A model generated the notes under the pieces. It saw only the letters and a program-made list of their open reading frames with translations, ran no database searches and was not told the DNA's origin. Shown here one piece after another: positions 1-14,588 of a stretch of 47,939 nt of DNA. The DNA comes from a virus: positions 1 to 47,939 of IMG/VR virus record IMGVR_UViG_3300006026_000023. One strand, 5' to 3'. The position numbers were made by a program, and so were the translations under genes. The first letter of the stretch is position 1. Each line of letters starts with the position of its first letter.

Positions 1-111
1 AGGGTCTTCATTGTAAGTCATAAAGAAAAGTAGTTCATGAACATGGGCGTGCAAAGGAGCATCCCCGTCCCTAACATACCAAGCACTTTTCAATATGGTT
101 TTCCAACTCAT
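1..111 (-). CDS. N-terminus of a tagged virion-type protein, cut by window edge
   Basis: Only the first 37 residues are inside the window. The protein opens with MSWKTILK, the same octapeptide found on most upstream genes of this operon, followed by a histidine-containing stretch (HAHVHELLFF). The ATG at 111-109 overlaps the TGA of the preceding gene by 4 nt, so the two are translationally coupled. The function of the body cannot be judged. The shared tag suggests it belongs to the same set of co-targeted proteins. Confidence 0.75.
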   Translation of the reverse strand, partial: MSWKTILKSAWYVRDGDAPLHAHVHELLFFMTYNEDP

Positions 112-761
112 TGTAATCTCTCCTGCATCTTCTGTTTAATATCAAGCCAAATCTCAGGATTGTTCTGTGCTAGCACTTCTTGAACAACTTGCATCTGTGC
201 AACAATAATTGTATCTTGTCGCTTGTGGACAAGTTTTCCTTTGAACTCCATCATGTATTTCAAAGACTCACGAACTTCTCTAGCCAACTTCACTAGAGCG
301 TCTAATTCCTTAGCATCTAAATCATCTCTAGATGCTATCTCGGTGATTTTATCATCGAGCAATTGAATGTTATTTGATAGCATATCCACCTCATTCAAAT
401 CCTTCTTGGCAATAATAGCCGCCGCAGACTTTTGAACAACGGGCTGTAAATGGTGCTTAACATGGCGATGGACTTGAGCCTTAGAAATTCCAAGCCCTAC
501 ACTGACCTCCTCGGCTGTGATAAGACCCTCATGTAATTGTCTCTCGTATTCCGACCTCATTGGGTCTACACAAATGGCACACTTTGGATTACTACTTTGC
601 ACATATTCTCCCATGTGATTCCTTTGATGCTGTGCGGAAGTACCGCTTCTCCAGTTCATCTTTTCATCTAATTCATCGGGAGTAATAGTAAGAGATTCTA
701 AATCGGCCTCCATAGAATCAACATCACTGTGTTGACAAAAGGCACAACTCTTTCTTCTCAT
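108..761 (-). CDS. Zinc/HTH protein, possible small terminase subunit
   Basis: This 217-residue protein starts with a CAFC pair near residues 6-9. A second CAIC pair opens a region reading about CVDPMRSEYERQLHEG, then ISKAQVHRHVKHHL. That pattern (CxxC, a helix, then a helix-turn-helix ending in HxxxHL) is familiar from phage DNA-binding proteins of the small-terminase type. The C-terminal half is predicted helical, with charged heptad-like stretches. Unlike most neighbours it lacks the SWK tag. Terminase small subunit is an inference from fold pattern and late-operon context; another DNA-binding structural regulator is possible. Confidence 0.45.
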   Translation of the reverse strand: MRRKSCAFCQHSDVDSMEADLESLTITPDELDEKMNWRSGTSAQHQRNHMGEYVQSSNPKCAICVDPMRSEYERQLHEGLITAEEVSVGLGISKAQVHRHVKHHLQPVVQKSAAAIIAKKDLNEVDMLSNNIQLLDDKITEIASRDDLDAKELDALVKLAREVRESLKYMMEFKGKLVHKRQDTIIVAQMQVVQEVLAQNNPEIWLDIKQKMQERLQ

Positions 762-770
762 AATAATTCC

Positions 771-1151
771 TCAAAGATATTTTAGTCCTTTCTGTATTCT
801 TCTCAACATTTCAAGGCTATGTTTTTTGTCTAAATCATTTTCAACAACTTTATACCCATCATTGTATGTGTATTCTGCTAAGGCAAAATCTCCAGCATCG
901 TCTTTGAATTCTATAGTATAGTACCCTTCATCCATCTCAAAAATTTCTTCTTCTGTTAAATCTTCCTCGCCTTCATACATGTCTTGAAAATCAATTATGG
1001 TTTCAACTACTCCAGATTCAAAATAACCATCTTCATAATCTTCTCGCATTTTATCTTCACCGAATCTTTCTAATTCGGTGGCAATCATCTCTAGTAAATC
1101 TTCTTTTAAATCGCTTTCTAAATCGTTCTTTAATATTTTTTTCCAATTCAT
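771..1151 (-). CDS. Acidic tagged protein (MNWKKILK)
   Basis: This 126-residue, very acidic protein has many D/E runs, such as the EEDLTEEEIFEMDE region. The start is placed at the ATG of MNWKKILK, 9 nt after an AGGTGATT Shine-Dalgarno-like sequence; an upstream in-frame start at 1175 would hide the tag. After the tag comes a helical acidic segment and a YTIEFKDDAG-like strand pattern. No family was recognised. The N-terminal motif places it with the other tagged proteins of this operon, perhaps as an internal virion protein. Confidence 0.75.
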   Translation of the reverse strand: MNWKKILKNDLESDLKEDLLEMIATELERFGEDKMREDYEDGYFESGVVETIIDFQDMYEGEEDLTEEEIFEMDEGYYTIEFKDDAGDFALAEYTYNDGYKVVENDLDKKHSLEMLRRIQKGLKYL

Positions 1152-1161
1152 AATAATCACC

Positions 1162-1929
1162 TTATGGTAGTCCACCTAAAGTTTCCGAAACAATCAACAT
1201 AGCAGTAGGGAATTTTCTTTTCAAATCACCTTCATTCCATGAAGTTTCCTTATTTGTTCTCAAGTATTCTAGAAGTTTGTAAAACTCTTGAGCCGTTCCT
1301 ATAGACGATTCATCATCTCTAGAATAAGACTGTTCAAAATTTTGACTAGCATAATCTTCTGCATCTTCTAGCCAGTTATCAACTTCTTTACTGTGACTGA
1401 CTTTGGGAAGTTTCATCATTTTATCTTCGATGTGGCTAATCTCTTCCCATTTGTTAGTTTCTTTTAGATAGCCAACTAGTTTATTATAGTCGGCTCCCTC
1501 AAACATTCTACTTATTTTTTCATGCTCAAAATCGGGCACTAACATTTGTTCTTCTATTGTTTGAATATCTAAATCCCCTGTTATTTCGAGTACATCTTTC
1601 ACAGACTCATCTCCTCTAAAACCTCCAAAATAATAACTTTCTTTTTTATTCCTTTTATTTCTAATAAAAACATCAACATTTGTAATTAAAAACATTTCAT
1701 CTAGTTGCATACTTCCAATGGCAAATAATTCAAAATAGTCGGGGAACCCCATATCCAATTCTTTTATCGAACTAGTGGCTGATTCATCATAAATAGGGAA
1801 ATCCCCAAAAAAGTCATTTAGGGTAGGTTCAAGATAATCTCTTCCTATCAAGGAATATTTTATTTCCTGTTTAGATTTATCATCTAAATCGTTATAATCA
1901 ACTCTTTTCAATATATGTTTCCAACTCAT
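1162..1929 (-). CDS. Tagged protein of unknown function (MSWKHILK)
   Basis: This 255-residue acidic protein begins with MSWKHILKR. The ATG at 1929 overlaps the TGA of the upstream gene by 4 nt, which favours this start over an in-frame one 18 nt upstream. The remainder is a mix of charged helices and short strands with aromatic-rich patches (FDYF, YYFGGF-like). No domain was recognised. Tight coupling to the genes on either side and the shared tag argue for a role in the particle or its assembly. Confidence 0.75.
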   Translation of the reverse strand: MSWKHILKRVDYNDLDDKSKQEIKYSLIGRDYLEPTLNDFFGDFPIYDESATSSIKELDMGFPDYFELFAIGSMQLDEMFLITNVDVFIRNKRNKKESYYFGGFRGDESVKDVLEITGDLDIQTIEEQMLVPDFEHEKISRMFEGADYNKLVGYLKETNKWEEISHIEDKMMKLPKVSHSKEVDNWLEDAEDYASQNFEQSYSRDDESSIGTAQEFYKLLEYLRTNKETSWNEGDLKRKFPTAMLIVSETLGGLP

Positions 1930-2900
1930 AGCAACACTTCCTTCCAACTTTTAATAACTGGACTAACCTTTACTCTCATGTTCGACTTCATGTAATCTTT
2001 AATCAATTTACGAGTCTTAGCCGGAGTCAACTCGATTGTGAATTCAGTAATAGTTCCTCCCAAGTCGGGAACTTTCATGTATCTAGATAGCATCTTTTGT
2101 GCCTTACCTGTAGGTGGAACCTTGAATGATTTACCGGACAGTAGCCTCATAACTCTCCCTGTACTTACTCCTTCTTCTGTTCTTGAAGTAGAAATAGCAC
2201 GACCCAATCTCTTTTTAAAATCGGGAATGGTTTGGAGAGTTGCGGCAGGTTTAGAAGTTGTAATCGTAGCGATGTAGTTTTGGTCGTCAATATCTTCAAT
2301 TGCTTTATTCAAAACATCAACCAATCCAACAGGAACTAAATCTCCTCCATAAAGGGCTTGGTAAATTGGCGGAGTAGCGGTATTTACTTTATCACTAACC
2401 CACCCATCTTTTTGTCTATCGGCAGTACCGTGTTTCTTAGCGTAGAATGTAGAAAGGTAGTGTCCATAGACTTTCTCCATTTCTACACCTCTAGCGTAAG
2501 CCCCTGTCTGTCGGTTATACTTCTTAGGAATTGAGAATACGATATTTTGAGGATTCAAACTAGCATCGTCTTTTAGCCCTTCGAGGTCATTAACAATTGC
2601 TTCTAGAGTTTCAGCATCCTCTTCAAAGAAAATTCCGTTAGCCCTGTCAACTAACATCTTCCTAATTCTTCTAAGCATGGTATGTGCGCCGGAATTTCCA
2701 TCATTAGGAGAACCCTTTCTAGGACTAGTGACATGGTTTTCAACTGCGTACAGTAAAGAACCTTTCTTCATGCCGGAGTTTGCACCTCTGCATTTTTTCT
2801 CCCAATCCTCAAAATCTTTCTTGAATTTGATAACTCCACCAACGGTTTCGATAACAGCGTCACCGATGCTGGCAGTATTCTTATTCACATCTTTAGGCAT
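1926..2900 (-). CDS. Virion-type protein carrying the SWK motif at its C-terminus
   Basis: This 324-residue protein was not recognised. It starts MPKDVNKN and has a basic N-terminal third (KKGSLLYAVENH, RRIRKMLVDRANG). Its last ten residues end in IKSWKEVLL, a close copy of the octapeptide that starts its neighbours, here at the opposite terminus. The ATG shares one base with the preceding TAA. A terminus-independent tag would be expected of a docking peptide. The body could be a structural or DNA-binding virion protein. Confidence 0.7.
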   Translation of the reverse strand: MPKDVNKNTASIGDAVIETVGGVIKFKKDFEDWEKKCRGANSGMKKGSLLYAVENHVTSPRKGSPNDGNSGAHTMLRRIRKMLVDRANGIFFEEDAETLEAIVNDLEGLKDDASLNPQNIVFSIPKKYNRQTGAYARGVEMEKVYGHYLSTFYAKKHGTADRQKDGWVSDKVNTATPPIYQALYGGDLVPVGLVDVLNKAIEDIDDQNYIATITTSKPAATLQTIPDFKKRLGRAISTSRTEEGVSTGRVMRLLSGKSFKVPPTGKAQKMLSRYMKVPDLGGTITEFTIELTPAKTRKLIKDYMKSNMRVKVSPVIKSWKEVLL

Positions 2901-3646
2901 TACTCATCCTTCCTTTTCTTTCTTCTGCCATAAGTAGGTTTGAATAATTTAGCATGTGCTGGAGCAGTAGTAGTCACGGCTCCTGCCATTCTCTCAAGGT
3001 TTTCACTATTAACATCTTCCTTAGAATTCTCTTCCTTTTTACGCCTATATTCTCTAACTGGCCCTTTTTTTCTTTCAGCATACCTTTCTCTGCTTCGCTG
3101 ATTTTTCCTTTCTCTATATTCGGGGTCATTCCGGTTTTCTCTTTTTCTTTCCCTTTCCAGCCTTTGCCGGTTTTCTCTATATTCGGGGTCATTAGCATAT
3201 TTCCTTTTCAATGCTTCCCTGTTATACTGTAATATTCTTTTCCTATATTCGGGGTCATTAGCATATCTTTCTTTTCTTCTTTCATATGTTCTTTTATTAG
3301 TTTGTTCCAGATATTCTGAATTTATTTGCTCCAATTTTGTTATAAATGCTTCATATTGTTTTGATTCTGCTAAATCTATAAGTGCTTTAAATTGATTTTC
3401 AGTAATCGCTTCTGTTAATTTGTTATTAAGAGCATTAGTTAAACTTCTGGAAGGGGATAATTTTTTAGAATCTGCTATTGGAATACCAAATACCTCTACA
3501 AGAAACCTTTGGAAATCATTCGGTCTCTTTAAAATTTCCCAAGCCTTTTTCATAGCAGGGTCTTCGAGACTATTAGGAACCCACACGCCATATGTTGTAG
3601 CATCTCTACGACTCAGTTTTATTTTTAATATATCTTGCCAACTCAT
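2900..3646 (-). CDS. Tagged basic protein with NDPEYR repeats
   Basis: This 248-residue protein opens with MSWQDILK. The middle (about residues 120-200) is extremely rich in R, K and E and contains three copies of a unit centred on NDPEYR, spaced about 22 residues apart. It looks like a long charged helix or coiled coil. The tail is basic (YGRRKKRKDE). Basic repeat proteins with a targeting peptide would suit DNA condensation inside the capsid, but that is inference. The ATG overlaps the upstream TGA by 4 nt. Confidence 0.75.
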   Translation of the reverse strand: MSWQDILKIKLSRRDATTYGVWVPNSLEDPAMKKAWEILKRPNDFQRFLVEVFGIPIADSKKLSPSRSLTNALNNKLTEAITENQFKALIDLAESKQYEAFITKLEQINSEYLEQTNKRTYERRKERYANDPEYRKRILQYNREALKRKYANDPEYRENRQRLERERKRENRNDPEYRERKNQRSRERYAERKKGPVREYRRKKEENSKEDVNSENLERMAGAVTTTAPAHAKLFKPTYGRRKKRKDE

Positions 3647-3909
3647 TTCTTTCGACCTCTTTGTGGCTTAGGAGGTAGTCTTCCTTTCTTTGGTTTCTTT
3701 CTTCTTTTGGTAGGTGTTTTATCAGTTTCTAAATCACGAATTAAGTTAGCATCTGCTTCTCTTCTTGCTATCTTTGCACCCATATCTCGACGAAATTCTT
3801 CCCGACGCTTTTCTTCCCTTTTTAGGTACTCATTACGCCTTTGAATTTTTTCTCTCTTGGCATCCATCTTATCGGGGTCATATGCCTTTAGTGTATCTTT
3901 CCAACTCAT
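3643..3909 (-). CDS. Small, highly basic tagged protein
   Basis: The 88 residues begin MSWKDTLKAYDPDK and continue with an Arg/Lys/Glu-rich helix. The end is a Lys/Arg/Pro tail (about residues 66-88, with TKRRKKPKKG and PKPQRGRKK) resembling histone-like or protamine-like tails. It probably binds nucleic acid. With the N-terminal tag, it is a good candidate for a packaged internal DNA-binding protein, comparable in layout to T4 internal proteins. An AGGTGAT-like ribosome site (CCGGTGATTT) precedes the ATG. Confidence 0.72.
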   Translation of the reverse strand: MSWKDTLKAYDPDKMDAKREKIQRRNEYLKREEKRREEFRRDMGAKIARREADANLIRDLETDKTPTKRRKKPKKGRLPPKPQRGRKK

Positions 3910-3910
3910 T

Positions 3911-4369
3911 TCAAATCACCGGATACCTAAACATCGGCAATTTACTAAGTTCAGCATACATAGGCTTGTTCATTATATCCTGTACTTGAGAATAAGAAGT
4001 CACCTTATCCCCTAGCCTAGCCGCCACCCTTTCTACCTTTTTCCTAGACTCTTCATCTAGAGGATTCAATAATGTAATTCTAGGCTTACCTCTAGTATGC
4101 TTATTCCTCTCTTGTAATAACTTTCCATAAATTCCCTGTCCTGTGTGGTTGGGGCTAACATAGGAGTTTCCTACGAAAAAGAATGCTCCCATGTCCTTAT
4201 AGGAAGTAAAGCCCAAAACTTCACCCTCATCATTTACTTCACTAACGAGGTTTAGTGGGCTTACCTTAGTTGGATAGCCTTTATCACTAGCAGTTCTAAA
4301 ATTTGGCATATTCTCCGAAACCGCAGATTCAGTTAGAACCTTGACTTCCTTGAGAATATCTTGCCACAT
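3911..4369 (-). CDS. Tagged GNAT-family acetyltransferase-like protein
   Basis: This 152-residue protein starts MWQDILKE, a version of the tag lacking the Ser. The central segment YVSPNHTGQGIYGKLL fits GNAT motif A: a beta-strand, then the acetyl-CoA pyrophosphate loop written as Q/R-x-x-G-x-G/A, then a helix. The strand before it (GAFFFVGN) and the later PRITLLNP strand also suit a GNAT fold. It would transfer an acetyl group from acetyl-CoA to an unknown substrate. If the tag directs packaging, it might be an enzyme delivered with the DNA. The GNAT call is moderate; the substrate is unknown. Confidence 0.6.
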   Translation of the reverse strand: MWQDILKEVKVLTESAVSENMPNFRTASDKGYPTKVSPLNLVSEVNDEGEVLGFTSYKDMGAFFFVGNSYVSPNHTGQGIYGKLLQERNKHTRGKPRITLLNPLDEESRKKVERVAARLGDKVTSYSQVQDIMNKPMYAELSKLPMFRYPVI

Positions 4370-4370
4370 T

Positions 4371-4613
4371 TCAATCCCTCTTTAATGAATAGTAATAGGT
4401 AGGAGATAGATAGGGTTGTCTTTTGTTAATCCAATCGGCATTGTTCAAGAATTTCCTTAAAGTAGCGTCTTTGAATCTACCAATTCCTCTTTGTGCCAAT
4501 GAAGACTTAATTCCTCCCAAAGCAATTTCATCTACATTCTCTAAAGTGTCAGCGACGGCTTTCACTATGCTAGTGCGAATGCCCTCATGTGTTAGAGTGT
4601 CTTTCCAAGACAT
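4371..4613 (-). CDS. Small tagged protein (MSWKDTLT)
   Basis: The 80 residues start MSWKDTLTHEGIRT, followed by two predicted helices and a basic region ending in YLSPTYYYSLKRD. No family was recognised. It is separated from its neighbours by 1-2 nt. The repeated start motif is the main reason to regard it as part of the tagged set. Confidence 0.7.
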   Translation of the reverse strand: MSWKDTLTHEGIRTSIVKAVADTLENVDEIALGGIKSSLAQRGIGRFKDATLRKFLNNADWINKRQPYLSPTYYYSLKRD

Positions 4614-4615
4614 AA

Positions 4616-5383
4616 CTACAACCTCAAATTTCTTTCAATGATGGGAACCAATTCTTTTAATGATGGGCTAGATGCAATGACAGCATTTCTTTTGCTGATA
4701 TGATATTGTCCACCATGCGATTTAACTTTCAAGAAATCCTTACCATAGTCTAATTTTAATTCGGGATTACCCTTTGCCCGACTAGATGTATGGCTAGAAT
4801 AAATCTCTCCTCCTAGTTTTTCTTGGAAGTGTTCTAGGAATGCTCTAGGTCCGAAGAATTTCAAAATAGATTTTCTTAGCATAGGAAACTTATCTCGGTT
4901 TCTTTTAGAAAGTTGAGTATCGACATAGTACCCTGCCGTACTTATGGAATATATTTCCCTATCAAGTTCTCTAAGAGCCGGAACATAATTCACCTTGTTT
5001 AAATATTTATCAATTCTCAAAATAATAGAGGACATTTCATTTTTCATCTCTTCTGTCACTCCTTCGTAATTTTCCATCATCTCTTGAGCGGCTTCGGGAT
5101 ATTGTTCCTTTATATCTTCAGCATCTTGTTTTTGCTGTTCTCGAAACTGTGCTTCTCCAACAAGAGATTCTAGAGCCTTAAGTTCTTTGAGTACTGCCTC
5201 TTTATTTTCCCTCGTTCTTTTTCGGTCTGCCTTACCTTTTTCTCCACCTGTTTCTTGACTGCGCTGACTTGTTCTTTGTTCAGCAGTTCTAGTATCTACT
5301 GCTGGCCGTGACATTGGCCTTGGTGCTTCCCTCTTATGAGGTGTCCAATTCTTATCTCTCTTGAGGATAGTTCTCCAAGACAT
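4616..5383 (-). CDS. Tagged protein with charged coiled-coil region
   Basis: The start is set at the ATG of MSWRTILKRD; a TTG six bases upstream overlaps the previous stop codon. The product is 255 residues. Residues about 15-60 are basic and low in complexity (Arg, Thr, Gln, Lys-rich), probably disordered, then comes a helical stretch rich in Glu and Lys. The C-terminal third contains a compact segment that includes FLKVKSHGGQYHIS. No family was recognised. The layout (tag, basic linker, small domain) suits a packaged accessory protein. Confidence 0.7.
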   Translation of the reverse strand: MSWRTILKRDKNWTPHKREAPRPMSRPAVDTRTAEQRTSQRSQETGGEKGKADRKRTRENKEAVLKELKALESLVGEAQFREQQKQDAEDIKEQYPEAAQEMMENYEGVTEEMKNEMSSIILRIDKYLNKVNYVPALRELDREIYSISTAGYYVDTQLSKRNRDKFPMLRKSILKFFGPRAFLEHFQEKLGGEIYSSHTSSRAKGNPELKLDYGKDFLKVKSHGGQYHISKRNAVIASSPSLKELVPIIERNLRL

Positions 5384-5385
5384 AA

Positions 5386-5604
5386 TCAAACCTCCGCATA
5401 AAACGATTCGCTGTTTGGCATATTAACCTGCCTAGCAATAACTTTCAAAGAGCCGCCCATCATTTGTAGGGCGTTCTTGAATAGGGAAATTTCCCTATCT
5501 ACAATTTCCTTTTCTTCTTGTGATAGTTTGGAAGTATTGACAGAATTCATAGTCTTCTCCATTTCTCTTAGGAGGGACAGTACTCTCTTTACTTCTGCTT
5601 CCAT
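5386..5604 (-). CDS. Small helical protein without tag
   Basis: The 72 residues, starting MEAEVKRVLSLLRE, are predicted to form two or three amphipathic helices. The ATG follows an AGGTGATT Shine-Dalgarno-like sequence that matches the 3' end of archaeal 16S rRNA, which is why it is preferred over the in-frame upstream start. No function is recognised. It is one of three genes in the leftward virion block that lack the SWK tag. Confidence 0.6.
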   Translation of the reverse strand: MEAEVKRVLSLLREMEKTMNSVNTSKLSQEEKEIVDREISLFKNALQMMGGSLKVIARQVNMPNSESFYAEV

Positions 5605-5619
5605 AGTAATCACCTAATT

Positions 5620-5904
5620 TTAAACAGGTTCTGCTTCACTCATAATTAAACGCAAAGCATACAAAGGCCCAATCCTTTTCTTACCGGCGAGTTCCATTGC
5701 GCTTTGTAGTTGTTCTTCACTGGCGTTAAATGCTTGAATTTTTTCTACTGCCATCTCAATTACATCTTGTGTAATGTCGTATTCATGGAATAGTGTTGCC
5801 GTGATAAAATCCATTGGTCCCATCGTCATTAGACCTTTCTTTATTTCAGCCTCTTTCAAGAGTTTCTTTGCTTCACGAATATTTCTAAAATCTTTGCTGT
5901 TCAT
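5620..5904 (-). CDS. Small alpha-helical protein
   Basis: The 94 residues start MNSKDFRNIREAKKLLKEAE and look wholly helical. The N-terminus has a hydrophobic-plus-charged pattern that might play the same role as the SWK tag, but it shares no identical residues with it. A GGTGATTATTG ribosome-binding region precedes the ATG. Not recognised. Confidence 0.6.
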   Translation of the reverse strand: MNSKDFRNIREAKKLLKEAEIKKGLMTMGPMDFITATLFHEYDITQDVIEMAVEKIQAFNASEEQLQSAMELAGKKRIGPLYALRLIMSEAEPV

Positions 5905-5910
5905 CAATAA

Positions 5911-6243
5911 TCACCGTAATTGTTCTTCTGCTTCAATCCATTCTTCGCCCAAGTCATACAACTCATCCAAAGCATCTTCGCTTATTTTCAATAACTTACG
6001 ACCCAGTTCGGGCATTTCCTTTAGAGAATTTTCTAACTCTCTACCATAGTAGGCATAATCCGATACTGCCTTAATGAAACCTTCAATGTTCTTTTTATCT
6101 ACTTTCATAGCCATCTCTAAACTATCTTTAGAACCCCTTCTCTCTTCAGCCTCTCTCTTCATCCGAGGACTGACATTCATAAAACTCGTCATGTCTTCGG
6201 GGTCTTCGCCAAGTATCTTTCTTAATTCATCTTTCCAAGTCAT
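5911..6243 (-). CDS. First gene of the leftward virion operon, tagged (MTWKDELRK)
   Basis: This 110-residue acidic helical protein starts MTWKDELRKILGEDPED, a diverged copy of the tag in which Ser is replaced by Thr. It is the promoter-proximal gene of the block running to the left window edge. The upstream side is AT-rich, with a GGAG ahead of the ATG. It could be a small scaffold or internal protein. No family was recognised. Confidence 0.68.
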   Translation of the reverse strand: MTWKDELRKILGEDPEDMTSFMNVSPRMKREAEERRGSKDSLEMAMKVDKKNIEGFIKAVSDYAYYGRELENSLKEMPELGRKLLKISEDALDELYDLGEEWIEAEEQLR

Positions 6244-14042: not shown

Positions 14043-14291
14043 ATGGCAAACAAGAGGACTATCGAAAGATTAGAAAAAATACTAAAAAATGGAAGCAAAA
14101 ACACAGCAGAGATACTAGACGAGTATCGAACACGCTGGCCGAAGGAGGCTTCGGGGGGTAGCAAGATTGGTAATCTACTATCTAGTCACAAACAATTTGA
14201 AAAGATTGGAACCGAAAAAGTGACTGCTGATTTTAGTCAGTACAGTTATTCTGTCAATGTATGGAAATTGACAAATGAGCGCATGGTGTAA
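14043..14291 (+). CDS. Small winged-helix-type protein overlapping a tRNA
   Basis: The 82 residues start MANKRTIERLEKILKNGSKN. The layout 'K.L..G.K.T.EI ... IGNLLSS...F.KIG ... VWKL' matches the winged-helix proteins at 28345-29065. Its last five codons (NERMV-stop) lie inside the 5' half of the tRNA-Arg gene at 14277. Probably a DNA-binding regulator. Confidence 0.65.
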   Translation: MANKRTIERLEKILKNGSKNTAEILDEYRTRWPKEASGGSKIGNLLSSHKQFEKIGTEKVTADFSQYSYSVNVWKLTNERMV

Positions 14292-14351
14292 TGGATAGCA
14301 TACCGGCCTTCTAAGCCGGTGATACGGGTTCGATTCCTGTTGCGCTCGCCA
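14277..14351 (+). tRNA. tRNA-Arg (UCU)
   Basis: Acceptor GAGCGCA pairs with TGCGCTC. The anticodon stem CCGGC/GCCGG encloses CTTCTAA with anticodon TCT. The T-arm ACGGG-TTCGATT-CCTGT is intact. Discriminator G is followed by an encoded CCA (14349-14351). Reads AGA codons, which are very common in the viral genes. The 5' end overlaps the coding region 14043-14291. Confidence 0.9.
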
Positions 14352-14353
14352 AT

Positions 14354-14436
14354 GTCGAAGTGGTGGAGTAGGTCAAACACGCAGGGCTTAAACTCCTGTC
14401 CTAAATGGTTCGCAGGTTCAAATCCTGCCTTCGACA
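14354..14436 (+). tRNA. tRNA-Leu (UAA)
   Basis: Acceptor GTCGAAG pairs with CTTCGAC, discriminator A. The anticodon loop CTTAAAC has anticodon TAA. A long variable arm (TCCTAAATGGTTC region) is typical of leucine tRNAs. T-arm GCAGG-TTCAAAT-CCTGC. CCA is not fully encoded (CCT follows). Reads TTA codons. It begins 3 nt after the tRNA-Arg CCA. Confidence 0.9.
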
Positions 14437-14441
14437 CCTAC

Positions 14442-14516
14442 GGAACAATAGCATAGTTTGGTTAATGCTCTCGGCTCATAACCGAGTGACCACAGGTTCA
14501 AATCCTGTTTGTTCCA
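14442..14516 (+). tRNA. tRNA with CAU anticodon (Met, or Ile2)
   Basis: Acceptor GGAACAA pairs with TTGTTCC, discriminator A. Anticodon stem CTCGG/CCGAG with loop CTCATAA (anticodon CAT). T-arm ACAGG-TTCAAAT-CCTGT. No encoded CCA. It is either elongator Met or an Ile tRNA whose C34 is modified to read AUA; ATA codons are frequent here, so the second option deserves a check. Confidence 0.88.
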
Positions 14517-14588
14517 CTCATTCAAATAGTGTAGTAGTGCTATCAATGACTACCGAGAGGGTGCAATGCCCGATAATGAGGAATAAAT

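Follow-up and report, generated by a model that had tools for sequence, protein, structure and literature searches.

A short tryptophan-centred peptide common to magrovirus late proteins and the prohead protease/scaffold, a probable head-targeting tag

Why would so many otherwise dissimilar proteins of a single viral operon carry the same few residues at one end? The question was raised by positions 1-6243 of the window, i.e. the whole 47,939-nucleotide stretch of viral DNA analysed here (IMGVR_UViG_3300006026_000023), for which a preliminary description had reported near-copies of one octapeptide at the N-termini of nine proteins. All nine were located on the minus strand of this operon, six of them matching a strict motif, M-x(0,1)-W-x-x-[ILV]-[ILV]-[KR], and three being degenerate. 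The leftmost tagged gene (1-111; ATG at 111, MSWKTILK) is represented by its 5′ end only (MSWKTILKSAWYVRDGD...), as it runs past the left end of the window, and its complete homologue in loci L003 and L007 is 105 aa in length. Further tagged genes encode acidic proteins at 771-1151 (ATG 1151, MNWKKILK) and 1162-1929 (255 aa; ATG 1929, MSWKHILK), a very basic repeat protein at 2900-3646 (ATG 3646, MSWQDILK), a small basic protein at 3643-3909 (ATG 3909, MSWKDTLK), a GNAT-like acetyltransferase at 3911-4369 (Acetyltransf_1, E 9e-4; ATG 4369), whose tag MWQDILKE has one residue fewer ahead of the tryptophan, and a 255-aa protein with a coiled-coil-like stretch at 4616-5383 (ATG 5383, MSWRTILK). 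Degenerate tags begin the 80-aa product of 4371-4613 (ATG 4613, MSWKDTLT) and the 110-aa product of 5911-6243 (ATG 6243, MTWKDELRK). A tenth carrier, overlooked in the preliminary description, is the 324-aa protein at 1926-2900, in which the tag is C-terminal, the last residues being ...VIKSWKEVLL before the stop codon (SWKEVLL, codons 1929-1949). The genes at 5386-5613 and 5620-5907 have no tag, nor does that at 108-761, which encodes a 217-aa Zn/HTH protein that was kept in all eight near-complete genomes examined and is likely to be TerS-like. The C-terminus of this protein (PEIWLDIKQKMQERLQ), of the form PEIWLDIKxKMQE(R/K)LQ, bears a faint likeness to the tag motif and is kept in most relatives. 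The basic protein at 2900-3646 contains short repeats (YxNDPEYRxxR...) with a weak match to Pfam GBP_repeat (1.5e-4).

The window is a fragment of a magrovirus, a tailed virus of marine archaea. It consists of two gene blocks of opposite transcription, with the late genes on the minus strand and a plus-strand block containing genes that we take, from their translations, to encode a chaperonin, a clamp loader, PolB and a TFB-like protein. A search with an operon protein recovered three close relatives, one of which is an 89.9-kb record with ends overlapping within the same gene. Products of these relatives include an S78 prohead protease, a portal, a terminase and a capsid protein like that of the haloarchaeal virus HCTV-1 (4e-21). 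The two opposed clusters, the archaeal replisome genes and the chaperonin, together with the HK97-type head module of the relatives, place the virus in the Magrovirales, tailed viruses of marine Poseidoniales of which the described family is uncultured (PMC10768690). Three clustered tRNA genes (Arg-TCT, Leu-TAA and Met-CAT) are present in the early block of the window at 14277-14517 (+).

The bodies behind the tags were described as unrelated, and the best pairwise BLAST match within the operon, E 0.010 over 48 residues, upholds this, with no clear similarity among them. The same was seen on a larger scale, as the 247 distinct tagged proteins from the fetched loci fell into 111 families by body similarity, and alignment of the tagged proteins left MxWxxILK alone as the common part, with conservation near background after the eighth residue, i.e. 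from W+6. The strict pattern presets W and W+3 to W+5; the preferences for K, E or Q at W+1 and for D, N or E at W+2, as well as the sharp end of the conserved segment, are independent of it. Annotation of 105 cargo representatives against Pfam and PHROGs placed nearly all of them in no recognised family, with single matches to PAP2, pentapeptide repeats, DUF5754 and GNAT among others. One tagged protein, at L115:12821-13060 (-), has two successive tags close to its N-terminus (MFWNLILRDCKMNEVKKMNWEDILKK), which may mark alternative starts.

Across eight near-complete magrovirus genomes the strict tag followed 106 of 2292 start-proximal methionines vs 3 of 5034 internal ones, well beyond what chance would give, and all 106 lay on the late strand. 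A count made independently of the motif gave the same picture: of 557 late-strand ORFs, 69 have tryptophan as residue 3, the mean for residues 4-31 being 6.1; on the other strand it was found at residue 3 in 15 of 507 ORFs. There are approximately 9-17 tag genes per genome, lying between and around the genes for TerS, TerL, portal, protease and capsid. They are concentrated on the upstream side of the capsid gene, where 102 of 360 late ORFs within 36 kb were tagged; on the downstream side, in the direction of the tail genes, the count was 4 of 195 (odds ratio 19, p=4e-17). The preliminary description had named absence from orthologous operons as a refuting outcome; instead, the motif is carried throughout the related viruses. 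Its DNA form was present in 23 of 24 related records, a reversed control pattern giving two matches in total; the whole-record DNA pattern gave no match in G018, a 43-kb fragment. Among at least 120 matches listed from a scan of IMG/VR with the DNA pattern, 110 loci encode magrovirus homologues and two further loci carry five tags each. No tag was found in the capsid regions of HCTV-1, the nearest cultured relative checked, and of Methanomassiliicoccales vir335. A cellular origin of the tag was ruled out, since 257 Gb of cellular genomes yielded merely 19 scattered and unrelated bacterial matches to the DNA pattern.

The tag is not confined to the start codon. Copies at C-termini numbered 29 vs 4.0 expected, and the rate of the motif on the late strand, per 1000 residues, was 5.6 at N-termini, 1.9 at C-termini and 0.17 in the middle of proteins. 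In the family of the 1926-2900 protein (29 members, 17-97% identity) the tryptophan of the C-terminal tag is invariant in all 29, being one of five invariant columns, and the typical end is K-S-W-x-x-x-L. A structure model of the window's member (pLDDT 86) shows a confident folded body with the tag as a separate, low-confidence end; a fold search with this model gave no PDB match with E <1, the best VIA Z being 4.3. GNAT acetyltransferases occur in both arrangements, N-tagged in the window, L115 and L061 and C-tagged in L239, L248, L182, L240 and L254. Two proteins, L139:283-1563 (-) and L193:6429-7679 (-), have tag-like motifs at both termini.

The motif also recurs at the C-terminus of the HK97-type prohead protease/scaffold, identified as S78 (Pfam 2e-10). 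In the main group this fusion protein ends in an invariant M-x-W-x-x-I-H-K (...MSWSDIHK... or ...MDWSDIHK...) in the same register as the tag; among 47 aligned homologues M388, W390, I393, H394, K395 and a later G are invariant, D392 is present in 89%, and the motif occurs in every full-length homologue listed. A second head-module protein, of 74-82 aa, has a C-terminal motif like that of the scaffold, and the two vary together in a comparison uncorrected for kinship; the N-terminal tags vary little between groups, too little for covariation with the scaffold to be assessed. When a PSSM built from N-terminal tags alone was used to score 194,431 non-N-terminal windows, both kinds of C-terminus came near the top, several from the 74-82-aa protein at ranks 9, 13, 18 and 19 and those of the scaffold from four genomes at ranks 20, 21, 33 and 34. 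The match between tag and scaffold covers the core M-x-W-x-[D/E]-I, with L or I at W+4 in tags where scaffolds have H; the K is missing from a few divergent scaffolds (MSWGDIHN, MTWDDVHS and MDWSDINA), while the tags in the same loci retain it. In a low-confidence model of the protease/scaffold (pLDDT 45), of which merely the C-terminal helices are usable, the motif lies on a helix that follows a long helix.

A head-targeting role for the tag is well supported by computation, namely by its restriction to the head and packaging part of the late strand, by the motif in common with the scaffold C-terminus and by its presence throughout related viruses. M-[ST]-W-[KEQ]-[DNE]-I-L-K is most probably the magrovirus capsid-targeting, or cargo-loading, peptide, for which the likeliest docking place would be the one that the protease/scaffold occupies with its C-terminal M-x-W-x-[D/E]-I-H-K helix. 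Under this reading the tag would dock accessory proteins into the growing procapsid during head assembly, the candidate sites being the scaffold core itself and the interior surface of the HK97-fold coat protein. If the tag and the scaffold C-terminus take the same place inside the procapsid, the tagged proteins would be co-assembled into heads and shut in alongside the DNA. Ejection into the next host would probably follow, delivering a varying repertoire of proteins that act early or protect the DNA. The same-register likeness to the scaffold C-terminus, including the methionine, has a single docking site as its simplest explanation; that scaffolds have H where tags have L at W+4, and that a few of them have lost the K, suggests that the site may differ in part. 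Those differences, at W+4 and W+5, leave room for two sites, and with them for a tag that binds the scaffold/protease core itself rather than the coat protein, as the T4 capsid-targeting sequence (CTS) does, the shared motif then reflecting self-association of the scaffold. T4 internal proteins go to the precursor core (PMC3012670, PMC9026906), and core binding is a real if less probable option; it is a sub-variant of head targeting, so that its probability overlaps with that of the preferred reading, and the one-site explanation of the shared register counts against it. A hub outside the head, such as host RNA polymerase, the proteasome or a viral chaperonin, on which the tagged proteins would dock to act late in the cell, would accommodate bodies that are diverse and mostly without a recognised family. 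However, neither restriction to the head and packaging module nor a motif in common with the prohead protease/scaffold would be expected of a host hub, and this reading is unlikely. A stronger form of head targeting, to which we would give an even chance, is a plug-in cargo system in which one procapsid docking site serves the scaffold/protease and the small head-module protein as well as over 100 interchangeable cargo families, such that an 8-residue peptide gained at either end would suffice for carriage into the next host.

Two further readings would deny the peptide any targeting role of its own, and the codons bear on one of them. The preliminary description had argued from differing serine codons that selection acts on the peptide; this holds with a reservation, in that leucine at W+4 is spread over five codons, but serine (84% AGT) and lysine at W+1 (96% AAA) are both more biased than in gene bodies and point to some shared ancestry or a 5′-end bias. 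Such bias would fit an element acting in the mRNA or in translation initiation, or a 5′ cassette of recent copying, with the encoded peptide having no role, yet isoleucine and lysine have their usual codons, the short M-W forms retain the peptide spacing while changing the distance to the start codon, and neither the in-frame C-terminal copies nor the invariant tryptophan of the 29-member family would be expected, so that this reading is scarcely credible. An RNA or translation element as such was ruled out by the codon diversity and the C-terminal copies. Somewhat less remote, although still improbable, is a substrate tag recognised or removed by the prohead protease, which is encoded in the same module and itself has the motif at the C-terminus. 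Against this, conservation falls to near background with no conserved scissile-site residues from W+6 on, and LxE/IxE sites of the T4 type are not enriched behind the tag (23 of 100 vs 85 of 457). The search behind the tag thus gave no sign of a T4-type LxE cleavage site, a result that leaves room for cleavage at a motif other than LxE/IxE.

Capsid targeting in which the tag shares the scaffold's docking motif can be set beside several known systems. In work on the HK97-type maturation protease by Duda, Oh and Hendrix in 2013, the C-terminal part of an S78-type protease reportedly carries fusions into proheads; unlike that encapsidation region, the magrovirus motif is also found on more than 100 unrelated protein families. 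The 2013 study is among the works cited in PMC12749128. Encapsulin cargo-loading peptides are terminal docking elements that bind an HK97-fold shell on its inner face; encapsulins differ in being cellular and usually having one cargo type. P22 scaffolding-protein cargo fusions likewise have a terminal docking element that binds the inner face of such a shell (PMC9962691), although they are engineered. In T4 the CTS of the internal proteins IPI-III and Alt is sufficient for targeting (PMC9026906, PMC3012670, PMC5694885), and the likeness that the preliminary description had drawn to it is borne out in part. As in T4, a short N-terminal peptide is common to diverse, fast-changing and unrelated proteins (111 body families, MxWxxILK), and its carriers are encoded with the head genes of a tailed virus having an icosahedral head and a prohead protease. 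Unlike the T4 CTS, the magrovirus tag is W-centred, spans eight residues, occurs in approximately 9-17 genes per genome, may stand at either terminus, is common to the protease/scaffold C-terminus and has no conserved cleavage site. The N-terminal region of P1 DarB sends DarB itself, which is ejected, as well as a reporter into the head, and the P1 Dar proteins have no consensus N-terminal sequence (PMC9024508), whereas the consensus of the magrovirus tag is near universal.

Capsid-targeting sequences are a known kind of element, with precedents in T4 and P1; the novelty lies in the use of either end, the motif in common with the scaffold, a very large range of exchangeable cargo and the lack of a cleavage site of the T4 type. 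No report of a capsid-targeting sequence in an archaeal virus was found in the openly accessible literature searched. Magroviruses are one of the most abundant virus groups of the ocean, and the motif is an almost unique marker of their late genes, with at least 110 magrovirus-like contigs among the at least 120 viral matches listed. If the proposed role is correct, capsid targeting would extend to archaeal viruses with cargo loading tied to the docking motif of the scaffold, approximately 9-17 virion-delivered proteins would be predicted per genome, and the tag would provide a simple experimental label for virion-carried, host-delivered products among the many unknown magrovirus genes, as well as a minimal peptide, of eight residues, with which proteins could be loaded into virus-derived cages.

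Two minor observations concern the genomes surveyed. An 828-aa protein with an ATP-dependent DNA ligase domain (L014:13179-15665 (-); Pfam 1e-27), with homologues in all eight genomes, is encoded in the head module between portal and prohead protease, an unusual site for a replication enzyme, and is possibly a head-associated ligase. The record G014 (IMGVR_UViG_3300021958_000021) is 184,733 bp long, approximately twice the usual magrovirus length, contains two separate tag clusters and may represent either a concatemer or a pair of genomes joined together.
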